Part shown: positions 5,601 through 34,675 of the stretch, one piece after another | Layout: each line of letters starts with the position of its first letter | How positions within the stretch are numbered: position 1 is the stretch's first letter | Assembly (NCBI RefSeq): GCF_003864255.1 | Contig: NZ_QWEZ01000001.1 | Coordinates: 248,001-312,000, forward strand | Direction of reading: 5' to 3' | From: Aestuariirhabdus litorea | GTDB lineage: Bacteria > Pseudomonadota > Gammaproteobacteria > Pseudomonadales > Aestuariirhabdaceae | DNA length: 64,000 bases | The notes under the pieces: model-generated | Databases searched by the model: none | The model's input: the letters and a program-made list of their open reading frames with translations, nothing else | What the model was told of the DNA's origin: nothing | Translations under genes and position numbers: made by a program

Positions 5601-6293
5601 CTAGCTGAGCAGCGCCGTGGCGTAAGGCATCAAGCGCTCAAGCAGTTGTTCCAGCATGCTGATTCCCCGAGCCAGCTGTTGGGCTCCGTTGGGTGTGAGC
5701 AGCCAGCCCAGCGCTCCCAGGTTTGCGGCCACGGTCAGCCAGAAGGCGGCCTGGAAGGGGCGTTTGCGGGTTTTGTGGCGCAGCCGGTGTTGAGCGAGCA
5801 CGGCGCCGGGCCAGCCGCCGAGCATCCCGGCCAGCCAGAGGGTGGTTTCCGGAGTGCGCCAGAGTCCATGGCGTGCGGCCTGCTTGTCCCGCCAGTAGAG
5901 CCCAAAGGTGAGCAGGCTGGCGGTGAGGTAGAGGGCAACCAGATGGGGAGGGATCAGTTGACGCTGAAACAGCAGCGTCAGCAGGAGGCCAAAGGTGGCG
6001 ACAATCAGGAGGTCGACCAGGGTGCCCAACAGAGCTCCGAACCGGGTGCCGCCAGAGCGGGGTGGATGCCTGAGGGGCGCCACCTCTCCCTCGTAGAGCA
6101 CCGCCTTCGCGCGAGACTGCCCGGCAAGGGGTCGACTGATCTCGAAGTGCAGGCGGTCGCCGGTAACCGGACGCCGGCGGATACCGGTGAACGCCTTGAT
6201 ATGCAGGAATAGCTGATCACCCGTCTGGTCGACTGCGATAAAGCCAAAGCCTCGCTCGTCGTCCCAGCGGGTCAGTGTGCCGGTGTATCTCAT
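5601..6293 (-). CDS. cold-shock domain / DUF1294 membrane protein
   Basis: 230 residues with two modules. Residues 1-65 form a cold-shock-like OB domain (GTLTRWDDERGFGFI, then LFLHIKAF corresponding to RNP1 and RNP2). Residues about 85-225 form a DUF1294 membrane region with four hydrophobic segments and the motif YWRDKQAARHGLWRTPE...GGWPGA followed by HKTRK. This fusion is a recurrent architecture in proteobacteria, so it is not an assembly artefact. The function is unknown; an RNA-binding domain tethered to the inner membrane is the literal reading. It is not obviously in an operon with the PII-like genes, since a 55-base gap separates it from their 3' end. Confidence 0.88.
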   Translation of the reverse strand: MRYTGTLTRWDDERGFGFIAVDQTGDQLFLHIKAFTGIRRRPVTGDRLHFEISRPLAGQSRAKAVLYEGEVAPLRHPPRSGGTRFGALLGTLVDLLIVATFGLLLTLLFQRQLIPPHLVALYLTASLLTFGLYWRDKQAARHGLWRTPETTLWLAGMLGGWPGAVLAQHRLRHKTRKRPFQAAFWLTVAANLGALGWLLTPNGAQQLARGISMLEQLLERLMPYATALLS

Positions 6294-27969: not shown

Positions 27970-27976
27970 GGGGGCG

Positions 27977-28170
27977 TTCTTGAGCGCCGGTGGCTCCACC
28001 AGGCCGGCCTTCGGCTACGCGCTTCACTGCTTCTGCTATCGGGCGTCCATGGCCTCCGCGGCATTCGAACACCCTGTTCATCATCCCTTCCTTCGGGCCT
28101 CTTGCGATAGCGAAAGAAGCGCCTTACCGGCCTTGAGGGTGATGGGGGGTCACCTTATAAGGAGTGAACT
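27977..28170 (+). repeat. palindromic repeat element, copy A
   Basis: About 190 bases matching copy B (29575-29785) in the same orientation. Shared blocks are CCGGCCTTCGGCT near the left end (around 28002), CACTGCTTCYGCTATCGG (around 28027), CTTCGGG and CGATAGCG with its A-rich follow-up (around 28092-28112), and GAGGGTGATGGGGG (28134-28148). The left GCTTCTGCTATCG and right CGATAGCGAAAGAAGC arms can pair, so a transcript would form a long hairpin with a variable loop. No ORF is apparent. It starts just after the shikimate-kinase-like stop codon. Confidence 0.72.
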
Positions 28171-28469
28171 GGGTGAGGTCAATTAATGAGCGAATAACAG
28201 GGTCTGCGCTAGAAATTAAACAACTGATCAAGCAATATCAATGGATTACGGGCGCTGGGGGGCTGGGTACTGCGCAGGGGGTTTACGGCTATGAATTGGT
28301 TTTTTTCAGTTAAAAAATAACAGCCGAAACCAATTAGCCCAGTACACTCCAGATTTTGATTTCATTGGGCGGTTCTTGACCATTTCCCGGTAAATCGGAG
28401 CCAGCTCATTTGTCAGGTTTGCTCTTGCGGTTATGCAGGCGCTATCCATAAAAACGAAGAACTATAAAA
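28171..28469. other. AT-richer intergenic segment upstream of the EamA gene
   Basis: No coding sequence was seen. It contains a 9-bp inverted repeat, AATTGGTTT (28294-28302) and AAACCAATT (28327-28335), separated by 24 bases. GGTTATGCAGG near 28430 superficially resembles an integron core site but lacks partner arms. GC is clearly lower than in the flanking chromosome. Confidence 0.5.
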
Positions 28470-29429
28470 ATGGAAACAACCACTACTGAATTAAACCTTC
28501 AACCCTCTTCTCAGGTGTTGGCATTGCTCTCAGCTTGCGGAGCCGGGGTTATTTGGGGGACAGGAGCGCTGGTGGTTAATATTCTGGTCGCGCAGTATGG
28601 TTTTTCTCCTGGGAATGTATCTTTCTGGCGTTTTGTCATTGGTGCTGTTGTTTTAGTTGGATTTTTTTGGAACAGGATTTTATGGAGCAGGATCGCACCA
28701 TTGCTGCCACTTATAATTCTTGCTGGTGCCGCAATGGCAGGCTACGTGTTGTTATGGTTTCTTGGTATTGAGCAAATGGGGGCTGCAGTGCCAACGCTGA
28801 TAGCCCTCTGTATGCCACCCGTCATAGTGACAGTTATTTCAATCATCCGTGGACAAGAAAGAGCAGATCTACAACTCTTTCTGGTGCTGCTGGGGGCGCT
28901 GTCGGGTACCGTACTAATCACCACTCGTAATGCCGATAGCGCTGAACACTTTGGTTCGGGGAGTATGGTGTTGGGTGTCACCTTTTCACTAGGGTCAGCA
29001 TTTTTATACGCTGGATTTTCCATGGTTAATGGGCGTATCTCAAAAGCGCTTGGGGCCGGCCCGACAGCCGCCTGTTTGACCCTAGTGGCGGCCGTCATCA
29101 TGAGCTTGAATTTTCTGTTCAGTCCATTCATATGGCCAACAGAAATTCCACCCCAAGCATGGTTTTTATATCTCGGCATTGTAACTGCGGCTCTGGCGCT
29201 ACTGGCTTTCAGTTGGGGCGCTGTACGTTTAAGCCCTACGGCGCTTACTGTAGCGACTCTGTTAGAGCCGCTTACGGCGGTAATACTTTCAGCGCTTTTG
29301 CTTGGGCAGCACTTTGGCGGATTGCAGTGGGTAGGGAGTATTCTCCTTCTGTTTAGTATCTGGCTGCTCGGGCGTAGAGTCTCAGCAAACAATGAGCAAG
29401 GGGCCTTGGCTAAAGGTTGTAATGGCTAA
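28470..29429 (+). CDS. EamA/DMT superfamily transporter
   Basis: 319 residues with ten hydrophobic segments in two EamA repeats (first from about residue 18, second from about 170). LSACGAGVIWGTGALVVNIL opens the first repeat. FLGIEQMGAAVPTLIALCMPPVIV and TVATLLEPLTAVILSALLLGQHFGGLQWVGSILL are the paired, strongly typical DMT motifs. It probably exports a small metabolite or amino acid; the substrate cannot be assigned. Codon use and GC are lower than in flanking chromosomal genes, and it is bracketed by copies A and B of a palindromic repeat, so it is probably acquired DNA. Confidence 0.92.
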   Translation: METTTTELNLQPSSQVLALLSACGAGVIWGTGALVVNILVAQYGFSPGNVSFWRFVIGAVVLVGFFWNRILWSRIAPLLPLIILAGAAMAGYVLLWFLGIEQMGAAVPTLIALCMPPVIVTVISIIRGQERADLQLFLVLLGALSGTVLITTRNADSAEHFGSGSMVLGVTFSLGSAFLYAGFSMVNGRISKALGAGPTAACLTLVAAVIMSLNFLFSPFIWPTEIPPQAWFLYLGIVTAALALLAFSWGAVRLSPTALTVATLLEPLTAVILSALLLGQHFGGLQWVGSILLLFSIWLLGRRVSANNEQGALAKGCNG

Positions 29430-29480
29430 TGGCTTTTTGCCTGGAATGGGGGGGTGAAGTTCCGGCGTAGGGGAGCATCG

Positions 29481-29580
29481 TAGGAGCGCCTTTGGCGCGG
29501 GGGTTCTGCCTTGCGGCAGGGGGGGGTGTCGGGAAGCACCCCGACAGGTGCCTTAAGGGGGCGACCACCGCCCCCTTAAG
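29481..29580. repeat. cluster of consecutive hairpins
   Basis: Several perfect short palindromes follow each other. AGCGCC-TTT-GGCGC lies near 29485-29500 and GCC/GGC near 29507-29519. TGTCGGG (29527-29533) pairs with CCCGACA (29540-29546). CTTAAGGGGGCG (29552-29563) pairs with CGCCCCCTTAAG (29569-29580) around loop ACCAC. None has a T tract, so they are not simple terminators. They abut repeat copy B directly. Confidence 0.75.
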
Positions 29581-29785
29581 AATCCCCGGCGGACCCCACC
29601 AATCCGGCCTTCGGCTGCGCGCGTCACTGCTTCCGCTATCGGCCGTTCCGAGCGGGCCTCCTGCCCGCACGGAACGGCTCGACATCCCTGTCTCGCCCCT
29701 TCGGGTCTGTTTCGATAGCGCAAGCAGCTCCTTGCCGGCTTGGAGGGTGATGGGGGAAGCCACCTTCCGGTATAGCCTCTGGGTT
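29575..29785 (+). repeat. palindromic repeat element, copy B
   Basis: Second copy of the element at 27977-28170, same orientation, with the EamA gene between them. The arms CTGCTTCCGCTATCG (about 29628-29642) and CGATAGCGCAAGCAG (about 29712-29726) pair at 14 of 15 positions. The loop contains its own nested palindrome, CCGTTCCGAGCGGGC...CGGAACGG. Outer blocks CCGGCC and GCCGGC also pair. The flanks and stem are more conserved between copies than the loop, as expected for a structured element. Confidence 0.72.
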
Positions 29786-30094
29786 ACTGCCTGACGGGAA
29801 TGGCTGGGAGGCGATAACACACAACGCGCATGCACCCTTTATAAACTGTCTGCACAATAAGGCGTTGACTATCAGTGGGCTATAAATTATTCGGCAGAGA
29901 TGTAGCGCTCAAGCAGCGGGGATACACTCACGGGTCGCTTTTCGCATAGCCAGTTCTGTGAAAAAGAACACTTTTCTCATATAAGTCAAAGAGGTACGCT
30001 GGTTCCAATCAATCCACTCCCCGGGGAAAAGTGCTCGGGTCGTTATACAAATGTTAGCATATTCAAACAATAGAAACTGATGTAGAGGTGATTT
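29786..30094. other. gene-free left boundary of the cassette region
   Basis: No credible ORF was found. A GTTATAC heptamer at 30042-30048, preceded by GTGCTCGGGTC and followed eleven bases later by TGTTAGCATA, resembles the 3' end of the attC site at 31307-31313 and its flank. A matching left arm within a normal attC length was not found, so a cassette boundary here is only possible. SD GAGGTG precedes the gene at 30095. Confidence 0.35.
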
Positions 30095-31198
30095 ATGTCT
30101 GAAAATGAGAAAAAACAAGAAGTCGGCACCTATATTACCGGCGTGGCTATATTTGGTGGTATTGGCATATGGCTTGGGGGGTGGATTGGTTTTGCTATTG
30201 GTGCTGGAATAGCTATATGGGCTATTAGCTCCAATGCCGATAAAGAAGCTAAAAAGAAATCACTACCTTCAAAAACAACTAATAGTGATAATGCACACGA
30301 AAGTAGCTTAGCCCTTGATAAGGATCCTGTTACATCTATTGGGTTTAATTATTCCTTTTATTCTAAATTAGTACCAGAGCTATTGGCTGTGTGCATTGCC
30401 GCAGATGGAAGCGTCGAGGAAAATGAAGTAGAAACTGCCACATTGTTGATTGAAAATGATGAATATATAAAAGATAAACAAGGTGCTCTTGAATCGCTCA
30501 GTGTAAATATAGAAATGCTTTCAGCTGCCATTGAGAAATCGAAGGCTGTTTTCAAATTAAAGGTTTCACCCATAATCCATCAAGCAATAAACATCAGCGA
30601 CTCATTAGAAAAAGACAGGATAAAAATTCTTCTTGATAGCTTAATTGAAGCTGTTCAAAGTGGCGACAAAGCACAAACATTGGAAATGGCAGAAAAAATA
30701 AAGGAAAAACTAAATGCTCAACCTGAAATCACAAAGCAAGATGCTGCAGAAGAGTATATTCGCAAAAGTGGCGACCAAGAAGCCATTAGCATGCTAAACA
30801 AGATAAAGAGCAATCCGAGACAGTACGGGGAAAATCTTAAGCAAGCAGCCAAGGGTAATTCTGTAATGAAAACTGCACTTGGTGTTTTTACTGGAATGAT
30901 AGCTTCGAATTTGGTCATGGGAGCTATAAACCAATACCAAATTGAACAAGCTTTGGCTAACTTTAACGCAGAATTAGAAAATATTGGAGGAATCGATAAT
31001 TTAGGCTTAGGCGAATATGATTCAACTCTTACTGACGCATCAGCGATTAATTTTTCAGAAGCAAGTCTTTCGGAAAATTACGAAGAAGAATATGCATCTA
31101 CTGATGACGTAGATGAAGATGTTGATACTGATGAAGATATGGATATTGCTATGGACACAGATGATAGTGGCGACTTTTTTTCTGATTTGTTTTCATGA
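30095..31198 (+). CDS. TerB-like membrane protein in an integron cassette
   Basis: 367 residues of unknown function. N-terminal hydrophobic stretch IFGGIGIWLGGWIGFAIGAGIAIWAI (about residues 19-45) forms one or two membrane segments. A TerB-like helical domain follows at about 85-205: YSKLVPELLAVCIAADGSVEENEVETATLLI has the DGSVEENE acidic loop typical of TerB/DjlA-type domains. A second hydrophobic patch near 265-285 (ALGVFTGMIASNLVMGA) and a very acidic tail (about 335-367, dense in Asp/Glu) complete it. AT-rich codon use differs sharply from the chromosome. An attC site starts 43 bases after the stop, making this the gene of an integron cassette. Confidence 0.75.
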   Translation: MSENEKKQEVGTYITGVAIFGGIGIWLGGWIGFAIGAGIAIWAISSNADKEAKKKSLPSKTTNSDNAHESSLALDKDPVTSIGFNYSFYSKLVPELLAVCIAADGSVEENEVETATLLIENDEYIKDKQGALESLSVNIEMLSAAIEKSKAVFKLKVSPIIHQAINISDSLEKDRIKILLDSLIEAVQSGDKAQTLEMAEKIKEKLNAQPEITKQDAAEEYIRKSGDQEAISMLNKIKSNPRQYGENLKQAAKGNSVMKTALGVFTGMIASNLVMGAINQYQIEQALANFNAELENIGGIDNLGLGEYDSTLTDASAINFSEASLSENYEEEYASTDDVDEDVDTDEDMDIAMDTDDSGDFFSDLFS

Positions 31199-31241
31199 AT
31201 ATGTATAAGTTCGTTTCTGTGCCATATGGTCATGAGCATAA

Positions 31242-31313
31242 TGCTAACAAGGCGCTTCACCTGACCGCTTTTCCGCTGCGCTTCAAAGCGGCCGGTGAGC
31301 TTGGTCGTTAGGT
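31242..31313 (+). other. integron attC recombination site
   Basis: A 72-base attC. R'' box TGCTAAC (31242-31248) and R' box GTTAGGT (31307-31313) fit the RYYYAAC/GTTRRRY cores at 5/7 and 7/7. Internal arms pair: GCTTCACC (31254-31261) with GGTGAGC (31294-31300), leaving one extrahelical T, and CCGCTTT (31265-31271) with AAAGCGG (31285-31291) perfectly, with unpaired TGA opposite CC between them and a 13-base loop. Imperfect stem, extrahelical bases and terminal cores are diagnostic. Recombination would fall between G and TTAGGT. Confidence 0.88.
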
Positions 31314-31318
31314 GTGCA

Positions 31319-31582
31319 ATGGTTAGCATACAAAAACACAACCTAGAGTTATCAAAGCAAGCGTATGCGGCTGTCGCTCACAAGCTTAAAGAAGGTGCTC
31401 GCATAGAAATATACGGGTACATTTACAAATTCAATGAATGGGGACTTGGAGTCGAAGCGCTAGTCGATTTTTTGGTTGAGGAAGACGTTGAGCTATCCTC
31501 AACAGAAATGGAAGCTCTATCGAAAGCTGCTGAATCGATGCAAATAGATAGGGGTATTAAATCAATCAAGGTTTCCGGATGA
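31319..31582 (+). CDS. small protein resembling MafI-type immunity proteins
   Basis: 87 residues from ATG 31319, only 11 bases inside the predicted cassette boundary, a usual spacing for cassette genes. The sequence is helical: an N-terminal helix to about residue 25, then GARIEIYGYIYKFNEWGLGVEALVDFLVEEDVELSSTEMEALSKAAESMQID. The pattern of a WGLG(V/L)E turn followed by an acidic loop and SxxE(M/F)E helix is reminiscent of small MafI-like immunity proteins that protect against polymorphic toxins. No toxin gene is adjacent. The resemblance is by eye and tentative; a stand-alone orphan immunity cassette would be consistent with known integron cargo. Confidence 0.6.
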   Translation: MVSIQKHNLELSKQAYAAVAHKLKEGARIEIYGYIYKFNEWGLGVEALVDFLVEEDVELSSTEMEALSKAAESMQIDRGIKSIKVSG

Positions 31583-31671
31583 TGAAATAAAGTTACTTGC
31601 CTGATAAATCAGTTAAATCTATGTATGAGGAGTCTTTACTTTAGTTGAGGTTTTATAGATCACAAGTTTTC

Positions 31672-32148
31672 ATGAAAAATATTTTTTTAATTACCTATAT
31701 AATAGTTCTATCTGCTTCACTACCAGGTTGTGCAGCAACTAACCCTTACAATGTCGTGGATGACAACTATTCGCTTCTTCATAATTGGATGAAAGAAAAA
31801 GATGAAGGGTTGATATCACTTTTCTTTAATCATTCAGATGATAATTTTCTCAATTGGGGTTTGTTTAAAGCGAGAAAAGATGTTGTTTTCAAGGTTCCAT
31901 CTGGTCATAGAGTTGTCATAGTTAATGTTATCTATGCCCCCAATGGGGTTTGGAGGATGGGTGGTCCATTTAACCTCCATGAAACTTTTGTTCGCATTAA
32001 TTTTAATGCTGAAAAAGGCAAGAGTTATCAGCCTAATGCAACCATCCAAAATGGCATCGCAGAAGTTTGGGTCGAAGAGGTTGGCGGTAAAATAGTCAGT
32101 GATGTGGTCTCCGCTAAGATTATTCCTTATGTTGAAAAATACAAATGA
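31672..32148 (+). CDS. hypothetical lipoprotein
   Basis: 158 residues with a lipoprotein signal peptide (IFLITYIIVLSASLPGC; Cys in LPGC at about residue 20). The mature domain is beta-rich with KDVVFKVPSGHRVVIVNVIYAPNGVWRMGGPFNLHETFVRINFNAEKGKSYQ and an end typical of a small beta-sandwich. I do not recognise the family. The ATG at 31672 was chosen because the signal peptide begins there; a TTG nine codons upstream is less likely. There is no SD of note. AT-rich codon use matches the preceding cassette ORFs. No attC was found between it and 31582, so it may share that cassette. Confidence 0.65.
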   Translation: MKNIFLITYIIVLSASLPGCAATNPYNVVDDNYSLLHNWMKEKDEGLISLFFNHSDDNFLNWGLFKARKDVVFKVPSGHRVVIVNVIYAPNGVWRMGGPFNLHETFVRINFNAEKGKSYQPNATIQNGIAEVWVEEVGGKIVSDVVSAKIIPYVEKYK

Positions 32149-32292
32149 AGGTTGCATAAATTATATTTATAATTAGTGCTTGCGCTGGTTGGTGAGGGAT
32201 GAGTATTAAAAATCATCTATGATAAGCGCTGATCCCAGCGGGCAGGTCCAACCCATCTCTAAAATTTGATCTAAGCATCGGGCGCTGCCGGG

Positions 32293-32418
32293 AAAAAACC
32301 CCTGAGCGGGGTTTTGGTTGCAGGCCCTGGCGGCTCAGAACTGGGTGGGGGCAGGTGCACCCCGACGCCATCGAGTTCGGCGGTGATCTTGATCTGGCAG
32401 CTTTGGCGGCTATTGTTC
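32293..32418 (-). pseudogene. decayed duplicate of the ferredoxin 3' end and terminator
   Basis: About 125 bases are roughly 90% identical by eye to 34310-34440. This includes the terminator (with a two-base loss in one arm), the whole spacer CAGGCCCTGGCGGCTCAGAA, and the last ~28 codons of the 2Fe-2S ferredoxin. Read on the minus strand it gives SCQIKITAELDGVGVHLP, against SCQIEVTAELDGVVVHLP in the intact gene. A one-base deletion near its 3' end then shifts the frame and removes the stop codon. Identity fades after about 32410. It is a non-functional remnant, and together with the intact copy forms direct repeats around 32.4-34.3 kb. Confidence 0.9.
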
Positions 32419-32697
32419 TGAGCACACCATCTGATATCTACCCTACCCTAAGCTATCCAGACACAATGTGCGCTGGTAATGTTAATAAATATCATAGGGT
32501 TAACTGCGGAGGCTAACAGGATACTGCGCCAGATCCTCCCGCTATATGCCACGGCTCTTTTTTACCGGACAAATAAAGCCGATGATCGATAAAAACCAAA
32601 TTAATTCAACCGGTTATCCGTCCATTGATTGTTGTCTGAAGAGGTCAAGACAAGCCGGGCCAGAATTAAGCTGCTATGGTTAAGAGGAGTCCATCCC
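32419..32697. other. gene-free segment after the ferredoxin remnant
   Basis: No ORF or clear regulatory element was seen. The stretch is of intermediate GC and contains short imperfect palindromes only. It ends at the SD (GAGGAG) of the GNAT gene. The preceding gap 32149-32292 likewise holds no gene and no attC-like arms. Confidence 0.5.
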
Positions 32698-33186
32698 ATG
32701 CAGATACGCGAAGCTACTGAAGCAGATTACGAAAAGATCTGGCCCATCTTTCATGAGGTCGCTTCGGCCGGTGAAACATACGCCTATCCTCGCGAAGTAA
32801 CAAAAAACGAAGGGAAAAAGCTATGGATGGAGTTGCCGCGCAAAACCTATGTGGTAGAAAACAATGAAGGAATACTAGGGACCTACTACATCAAAACAAA
32901 TCAAGCTGGGCCGGGTAGTCATGTATGCAACTGTGGCTACATGGTTGCGTCCTCTTCTAGAGGGCAAGGTATCGCTACCGTCATGTGCGAGCATTCTCAA
33001 AAAATGGCAGTTGAGCTTGGCTATGAAGCAATGCAATTCAACTTCGTGGCCTCAACCAATGAAGGGGCTGTGCGCCTATGGCAAAAGCTCGGCTTTGGAA
33101 TCGTAGGGCGGTTGCCACAGGCGTTTAAGCATCCGTCGAGAGGCTATGTTGATGCGCTGATCATGTATAAATGGCTCAAAACATAA
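32698..33186 (+). CDS. GNAT family N-acetyltransferase
   Basis: 162 residues from ATG 32698 (GAGGAG eight to ten bases upstream). IREATEADYEKIWPIFHEV opens a typical GNAT; the acetyl-CoA-binding loop is ASSSRGQGIATVMCEHSQ, matching the R/QxxGxG/A consensus. NFVASTNEGAVRLWQKLGFGIVGRLPQAF is the standard C-terminal motif. It is closest in style to YhhY/L-amino-acid or PhnO-type acetyltransferases; the substrate is unknown. GC is lower than chromosomal neighbours. It is the first of three genes between the ferredoxin direct repeats. Confidence 0.9.
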   Translation: MQIREATEADYEKIWPIFHEVASAGETYAYPREVTKNEGKKLWMELPRKTYVVENNEGILGTYYIKTNQAGPGSHVCNCGYMVASSSRGQGIATVMCEHSQKMAVELGYEAMQFNFVASTNEGAVRLWQKLGFGIVGRLPQAFKHPSRGYVDALIMYKWLKT

Positions 33187-33298
33187 CAGGGTGCTCGCGT
33201 CGTTCGTCATTTTTCTCCTCACTGAGACCCACAGCTTAGCTGGCAGCCCCATAGCATGGCGTAAGCGTTTAAAAAAACTCAGGTATAGGGAAACCATT

Positions 33299-33802
33299 AT
33301 GAAAAAAATTAGAATTTTAGTTTTAGGTCTACTTGCTGCTTCAGGTTGGGGAGCAGTTGCTTCAGAAAAAACACCGGAAGCGTCTCATGGGATTGAATAT
33401 CCTAGTGGTTGGCAGAACTGGTCAACAATCGCCGTATCTCATAGAACAGATAACAACACGTTAAGGGTTATACTCGGAAATGAAATTGCAGTAAAAGCCG
33501 CTCGCTCTGGAAAAGTTAATCCATGGCCGGAGGGTTCAATCCTGGGTAAAGTGGTTTGGAAAGATACCGAATTAGAAAACTGGAAAACAGCAATTGCACC
33601 TGGAGATTTTGTTCATGCTGAATTCATGTTCAAAGACTCAAACAAGTATTCCAAAACTTATGGTTGGGGATGGGCGCGTTGGGTTGGTCTTGAGCAGGAG
33701 CCGTTTAAAAACGGGGCTCAAGTATGCACCTCGTGCCACACGCCTGTAAAAGAGCGTGATTGGGTGTTCACTGATCCAGCACCCTTTCCAGCATTAAATT
33801 AA
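33299..33802 (+). CDS. cytochrome P460 family protein
   Basis: 167 residues from ATG 33299. A signal peptide (RILVLGLLAASGWGAVA) directs it to the periplasm. The body shows TLRVILGNEIAVKAARSGKVNPWPEGSILGKVVWK, the conserved central segment of cytochrome P460, and YGWGWARWVG. A single heme-c motif, CTSCH (Cys143-His147), lies near the C-terminus. Nitrosomonas cytochrome P460 oxidises hydroxylamine to N2O using a Lys-heme cross-link; the lysine in AVKAARSGK is the obvious candidate here. Substrate specificity in a non-nitrifier is uncertain. It lies between the ferredoxin direct repeats and is probably acquired. Confidence 0.88.
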   Translation: MKKIRILVLGLLAASGWGAVASEKTPEASHGIEYPSGWQNWSTIAVSHRTDNNTLRVILGNEIAVKAARSGKVNPWPEGSILGKVVWKDTELENWKTAIAPGDFVHAEFMFKDSNKYSKTYGWGWARWVGLEQEPFKNGAQVCTSCHTPVKERDWVFTDPAPFPALN

Positions 33803-33850
33803 GCTAACCAGTGGCCGCAGAACCATGCGATTTTGCCAGGAAGATAAGCC

Positions 33851-34267
33851 ATGAACTCACCAACCGTCATTGCATTGTTAGGGTTTATTGGGTGGAGCCT
33901 CTTCTTACTCGTACTTATGGAGTCCATACGATCAAAGATGGTGCTTGCCAAAGAGATAGCTCCAAACGGCTTTAATCCAGAAAACTCCAATCTGTCGCCG
34001 TTTATGCAAAGGTTGGCTCGCGCGCATGCCAACTGCATCGAAGGGCTACCTGTCTTTGGGGGGCTGCTGCTTGTAGCGGTGGTTACCTCCAATACTTCCA
34101 TTACAGATCCACTTGCTTATGTCTTCCTGGGCGCAAGAATAGCCCAGTCTTTAATTCATCTTGCCTCACTCAGCCCCTTGGCGGTCACGCTGAGGTTCAG
34201 TACTTTTGCCGTTCAAATGGGTATCGGTGTGTATTGGTGCTACACACTGTTTGAGGCATTGGTCTGA
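33851..34267 (+). CDS. MAPEG family membrane protein
   Basis: 138 residues with four hydrophobic segments. LSPFMQRLARAHANCIEGLPVFGGLLLVAVV is the family signature, including the RAHxNxxE motif in transmembrane helix 2. YVFLGARIAQSLIHLAS forms the third segment. MAPEG proteins include glutathione-dependent transferases, peroxidases and leukotriene-synthesis relatives; bacterial members are mostly uncharacterised. It follows the P460 gene by 48 bases and ends just before the shared bidirectional terminator. It is the last gene of the segment between the two ferredoxin 3' copies. Confidence 0.88.
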   Translation: MNSPTVIALLGFIGWSLFLLVLMESIRSKMVLAKEIAPNGFNPENSNLSPFMQRLARAHANCIEGLPVFGGLLLVAVVTSNTSITDPLAYVFLGARIAQSLIHLASLSPLAVTLRFSTFAVQMGIGVYWCYTLFEALV

Positions 34268-34309
34268 GGGTAATCCAGCTTAACTAGCGGGGTGTGTGTC
34301 CCGACCAAC

Positions 34310-34335
34310 AAAAAACCCCGCCTGGGCGGGGTTTT
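34310..34335. terminator. bidirectional terminator of MAPEG and ferredoxin genes
   Basis: Six A precede CCCCGCC (34316-34322), which pairs with GGCGGGG (34325-34331) and is followed by TTTT. It suits both converging transcripts. Its degenerate twin lies at 32293-32315. Confidence 0.88.
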
Positions 34336-34354
34336 GGTTACAGGCCCTGGCGGC

Positions 34355-34675
34355 TCAGAACTGGGCGGCGGGCAGGTGCACCACGACGCCGTCGAGTTCG
34401 GCGGTGACCTCGATCTGGCAGCTCAGGCGGCTGCGCTCGTCAGCGCCGGGAATCGCCTCCAGCATCTCCTGCTCGCTGTCGCCGGCCTCACCGGTCTTGT
34501 CACTCCAGTCGGTATCGACAAAGCAGTGGCAGGTGGCGCAGGCACCGGCACCGCCGCACTCCCCGAGGATGCCGTCGATCATGTTGTCGACGGCGCCCTG
34601 CATAATGGTATTGCCCACCGGCACTTCGGCCTCGTATTCGTTACCCTCGGCGGTAATGTATCGTACTAACGGCAT
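34355..34675 (-). CDS. 2Fe-2S ferredoxin (putidaredoxin/adrenodoxin type)
   Basis: 106 residues. The cluster ligands are ECGGAGACATCHCF (Cys in CGGAGACATC) with the fourth cysteine in RSRLSCQIEVT, the arrangement of vertebrate-type/putidaredoxin ferredoxins. It would carry electrons from the reductase encoded 19 bases upstream to a monooxygenase such as a P450, none of which is in the window. SD GGGGAGAG precedes the ATG closely. The 3' end of this gene is duplicated as a remnant at 32.3 kb, so this locus was the target or source of the insertion event. Confidence 0.95.
   Translation of the reverse strand: MPLVRYITAEGNEYEAEVPVGNTIMQGAVDNMIDGILGECGGAGACATCHCFVDTDWSDKTGEAGDSEQEMLEAIPGADERSRLSCQIEVTAELDGVVVHLPAAQF

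Follow-up and report, generated by a model that had tools for sequence, protein, structure and literature searches.

The window analysed here is a 64-kb stretch of the Aestuariirhabdus litorea genome, in which a low-GC island of 6.3 kb (about 27970-34310) lies between the genes for shikimate kinase and ferredoxin. The island carries an EamA transporter gene (28470-29429), an AT-rich gene belonging to what we call cassette A (30095-31198), genes B (31319-31582) and C (31672-32148), and genes for GNAT, cytochrome P460 and MAPEG proteins; the repeats, the attI-like and attC sites, cassette A and genes A to C are all described on the forward strand. In the congener G001, the shikimate kinase and ferredoxin genes are neighbours, about 110 bp apart, and the island is absent from that orthologous place, consistent with the chromosomal island proposed in an earlier note on this DNA. 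At its right side, positions 32293-32411 are a diverged (89%) copy of the ferredoxin 3' end and terminator (34310-34432), and these duplicates bound the segment with the GNAT, cytochrome P460 and MAPEG genes. This arrangement suggests an import of the right-hand part through recombination with related DNA.

The protein encoded by the cassette A gene (367 aa) gave only a sub-threshold Pfam match, to DUF2076, and no relatives of it were found in 390 genomes of the order, in plasmids or in GTDB. The gene ends 43 bases before an attC site (31242-31313), and gene B (87 aa), for which AGGTG may serve as the ribosome-binding site, begins 5 nt after it, both distances agreeing with the earlier description. 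Gene C is a lipoprotein-like ORF of 158 aa. Upstream, a palindrome-rich dispersed repeat of about 270 bp, here named repeat R, lies at 29480-29760, and a second, partial copy lies left of the EamA gene at 27987-28156, so that the two copies flank this transporter gene.

attC sites in the window and in the genome

The window attC has an R'' box TGCTAAC (31242-31248) and an R' box GTTAGGT (31307-31313). When folded as DNA, its bottom strand reached -14.7 kcal/mol, against -12.2 for the top strand, and the z-score relative to shuffled sequences was only -1.6. As energy by itself is thus weak support and did not set the site apart from shuffles, it was dropped as proof, and we built a covariance model, R1, trained on 20 attC sites from the integrons of relatives of the same order, with the window site left out. 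In the integron loci tried, R1 recovered 102 sites up to E 1, the training sites included. Over the 64-kb window, the model gave a single match, exactly at 31242-31313, at full model length (36.3 bits, E 7e-7), containing the R'' and R' boxes with G^TT and the paired inner arms. No second attC was found in the window by the R1 search up to E 10, and with filters off the next-best match between 27.9 and 34.7 kb reached 9.9 bits. The attC at 31242-31313 is therefore genuine, as the earlier note had claimed in proposing this very check. The site escaped a hand-made box finder, its spacer being irregular, and Rfam gave no match at the gathering threshold. A close relative of this attC, with an R'' box that appears altered, is present on the Citrobacter plasmid pLNU-11 (L036, 3156-5065), near a group II intron reverse transcriptase gene.

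The earlier note had also suggested looking for more attC sites in the full genome. Genome-wide, R1 gave five matches at four loci (E 1.2e-5 to 0.25), the window being one of them and the others being L043 (C1:438548), L044 (C1:1940173) and L045, with two sites (C2:1347518 and C2:1349564). With filters off, a weak further attC was found in L043 directly after the second cassette gene; its R'' box, GCATAAC, pairs without a mismatch with GTTATGC, the R' of the same cassette. The total is thus six attC sites, two each at L043 and L045 and one each at L044 and the window, of which the two weakest matches (21.3 and 19.4 bits) are marginal at genome scale. Two further BLAST fragments of the window attC in the genome were short partial matches and not attC sites. 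In congeners, synteny around the places corresponding to L043, L044 and L045 was broken or one-sided, and only the window locus had a clean empty counterpart.

The cargo of the cassettes is varied. One cassette of L043 (8627-11061) holds two genes, one for an adenine methylase of the EcoRI type and one, named by eye, for a DUF262/HNH-like protein, which probably form a restriction-modification-like pair. The other cassettes encode two AAA/OLD/AriA-like ATPases and unknown proteins, and judging from these families the cargo probably includes phage-defence genes.

An attI-like element upstream of the cassettes

Comparison of the four loci revealed a common stretch of 110-190 bp upstream of the cassettes that stops at the cassette start (...GGGTCGTTATACAAATGTTA). 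In the window, this attI-like element occupies 29870-30056 (core 29943-30056), 1.25 kb upstream of the attC, and ends in ...GGGTCGTTATACAAATG^TTA. A profile of the element, in whose building a copy from the congener G002 was included, found exactly five copies in the genome (E 1e-32 to 6e-35), two at L045 and one each at L043, L044 and the window. Every copy lies directly upstream of a cassette and the genes downstream all differ; the profile search thus found no empty copy among the five. The copies are 79-91% identical to each other and 59-66% identical to that of G002. Conservation of the left side ends after ...ATGTTA, and the junction is ATG^TTA in all five copies, so that a putative attI adjoins the cassettes at G^TT in each case, as in a complete integron. 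The claim of the earlier note that there is no attI within 64 kb is hence not upheld.

By eye, the terminus of the element, ATACAAATGTTA, is similar to the minimal attI1 (AAACAAAGTTRRRY) and attI2 (AATAAAATGTTRRRY) that have been published (PMC12901181), and TATACAAATGTTA looks like the R-box pattern of minimal attI, a comparison for which only short motifs are available. The idea that the element is a structured RNA or a hairpin like that of attC was rejected, its consensus fold having almost no covariation support; a permissive Rfam search over 29400-30110 gave only sub-threshold, chance-level matches. No copy of the element was found in plasmids or in viral contigs, and the exact motif had one match in GTDB contigs (Konateibacter), about the number expected by chance in a collection where close relatives of the window may be missing.

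In the window, the 5' end of cassette A is the G^TT at 30053/30054. If the element ends at G^TT, the first bases of a cassette are expected to complement its own R'', and this was observed: the crossover and cassette A's own R' (GTTAGCA, 30053-30059) gave 8 of 8 complementary bases (GTTAGCAT/ATGCTAAC), L044 gave 7 of 7 and the others 6 of 7. Among 120 permutations, the pairing of each R' with its own R'' was the best or tied with one other, beating 118-119 of the 120 pairings. The end of the element, this complementarity and the covariance match together delimit cassette A as 1253 bp, from TTAGCA... to the crossover in the R' of the attC (30054-31306). The earlier statement that at least two genes here are cassettes holds for gene A, whereas gene B stands in cassette position after the attC and lacks an attC of its own; it is putatively either a second cassette minus its lost attC or a gene of the target side.

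The right flanks were compared in the same way. Past the last attC, L043 and L044 have in common about 40 bases starting at G^TTAA and followed by an inverted R, with a score of 71 against 29 for the best of 300 shuffles. The similarity between L044 and L045 was weaker (36 versus 33 in shuffles), and the right flank of the window locus matched none of the others, only the left half of the platform being present there. Since at L043 and L044, and weakly at L045, the flanks are conserved on both sides and halt at G^TT, the empty capture site can be read: the predicted empty platform would consist of R, a spacer of 100-300 bp, the attI-like ...GGGTCGTTATACAAATG^TTAAYSCTCYAACGTRCATTC... and an inverted R. 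In the window, the right half of the platform, and with it the attC of gene B, may have been lost through the proposed import on the right side of the island.

Repeat R is a constant companion of these sites. Nine of its 15 genome matches fall at the four attC loci, which make up about 25 kb of 3.66 Mb; it is upstream at all four, with inverted copies at L043 and L044. Copies also occur at places without attC, and they are ragged-ended with varying boundaries, for which reasons R is not called a transposon here. The platform may have spread by recombination via R. At L045 (7906-8131), a common GCCGCAxGGC is the point of fusion between the second attI-like copy and an inverted R, and R cuts off the attC of the cassette that precedes this copy.

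The position of the element bears on one of the options left by the earlier note, a cassette inserted at a secondary site. Cassettes might have entered scattered attG-type sites, the common element being a mere repeat that holds a good attG; such insertion is experimentally established for other integrons (Loot et al. 2024, as cited in PMC12444791), and it would fit a single attC in islands. Scattered targets would not, however, have 110 bp in common: instead of unrelated G^TT sites, the same left flank of more than 110 bp was found at all four loci, the 110-190 bp element carries a cassette at one and the same base in all five copies, and in G002, too, it stands at the head of an array. A five-copy element that ends exactly at the 5' boundary of the cassette makes a chance secondary-site insertion unlikely, and we consider this explanation quite improbable.

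The integrase and the distribution in relatives

In a complete integron, an intI gene is expected, and the earlier note had reported none in the window. This absence was extended to the whole genome: nothing exceeded the TIGR02249 cut-off, partial XerC/XerD-type matches scoring far below it, and tblastn with the IntI of a congener returned only the two XerC/XerD-type genes and no recognisable remnant of intI. A complete integron with this attI might exist, with its intI in an assembly gap or on an unassembled plasmid. The assembly has 7 contigs and is 98.7% complete, which leaves a small chance that intI is missing for this reason; two contigs, however, account for almost the entire genome, no intI adjoins any of the five elements and the element of G002 is also without one. 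Taken together, we regard a missed intI as very improbable.

Of the relatives sampled from the order, about half carry a full integrase. Both congeners have many attC sites, with an intI split across contig ends in G001 and a truncated, stop-containing copy in G002. The attI regions linked to these intI genes are alike but score at chance against the element. Among 293 genomes, the element profile was otherwise found in only four: a strong match in G002, a degraded copy in G001 and two partial matches that are barely significant. In G002, several cassettes follow the element in an array next to dinB, and no intI was found on the element's side of the array. This copy is interrupted just at the crossover by an IS110/IS1111-type transposase gene (L062, 2784-3863), after ...ACAAAT, with ...TGTTAGGC resuming beyond. 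The degraded homologue of G001 (L072, G001:C15, about 5994-6115) precedes a lipoprotein gene, and no attC was detectable at it.

Origin of the loci and comparison with known systems

In integrons in general, IntI joins the folded bottom strand of attC to attI at G^TT. We think it probable that the genome holds a multi-copy, integrase-less, attI-like platform (five copies at four loci) whose cassettes were delivered in trans by an integrase that has been lost or was external. This reading draws, at the level of sequence, on the identity of the attC, the number and placement of the element copies and the halting of the conserved flanks exactly at G^TT on both sides; attC and attI-like sites are predicted from it to function in recombination. 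The platform would have been duplicated in this lineage, possibly through repeat R, and an IntI acting in trans would then have cleaved at G^TT and joined folded bottom-strand attC to the attI-like sites, each copy capturing different cassettes. The integrase could have been encoded by an integron that this lineage has meanwhile lost, or have been supplied externally. As no intI is present now, the arrays would be frozen unless an integrase arrives.

The most serious rival is the break-up of one array, in which intI was lost from one ancestral integron and the array, together with attI, was copied or split via R, with no later capture. It is consistent with the presence of R upstream at every locus, with the direct fusion of R and the attI-like copy at about 8017 in L045 and with sister species that have or had intI. 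In addition, CALINs are usually viewed as degraded integrons; in genome surveys, integrase-less attC arrays turn up about as often as complete integrons do (PMC9024848). Splitting of an array would, however, yield one attI, and duplication of a block would yield common cassettes, whereas the cassette differs behind each of the five attI-like copies, with the junction exactly at G^TT, and the right flanks, too, restart exactly at G^TT. The remnant array considered in the earlier note does not, in its simple form, explain five attI copies at four loci, and we judge this rival unlikely. Going further than loading in trans, we tentatively suggest, as a possibility short of a probable one, that the platform is a dispersible, integrase-free unit, repeat-bounded and with attI only, which would spread over the chromosome as new docking sites filled in trans.

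By definition, the loci are CALINs or single attC sites without integrase: L043 and L045 have at least two attC sites, and the window locus has one. Like CALINs, they carry attC-bearing chromosomal cassettes with no intI nearby, but here each locus is headed by a recognisable attI-like site, with five similar copies at four loci. An attI is normally not looked for and is poorly described outside class 1 (PMC9024848). With sedentary chromosomal integrons, the loci share an attI-like site, AT-rich attC cassettes, defence-like cargo and G^TT junctions; they differ in that intI is absent, each site holds one or two cassettes, the genome has several sites and the attI-like sequence is unrelated to the intI-linked attI of the congeners. 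The Delta-attI-type cassettes of class 1 and 2 integrons likewise have attI outside its usual single position and an R-box pattern that looks alike, but in those a partial attI takes the place of attC behind the gene (PMC12901181), whereas the attI-like element of the present loci is long and lies upstream, the attC being normal. MITE-bounded integron mobilisation units, which are marked by terminal inverted repeats with target-site duplication, were compared by description. They resemble two of the loci, L043 and L044, where attI-like site and cassettes lie between inverted copies of R, whose boundaries vary from copy to copy; unlike in those units, there is no intI fragment. In the open-access papers covered by our search, no genome lacking an integrase was described as holding several orphan attI sites.

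The head sites of these integrase-less loci are recognisable because they are present in several copies, which makes the empty site readable and helps to tell capture in trans from decay. A repeated left flank that halts at G^TT offers a simple cue for orphan attI sites in other genomes, and the loci provide a concrete system for asking whether one integrase serves several dispersed attI sites. They show how integron cassettes can reside outside a normal integron and, if the platform is a dispersible unit filled in trans, one genome would hold several independent small integrons served by one lost or visiting integrase.
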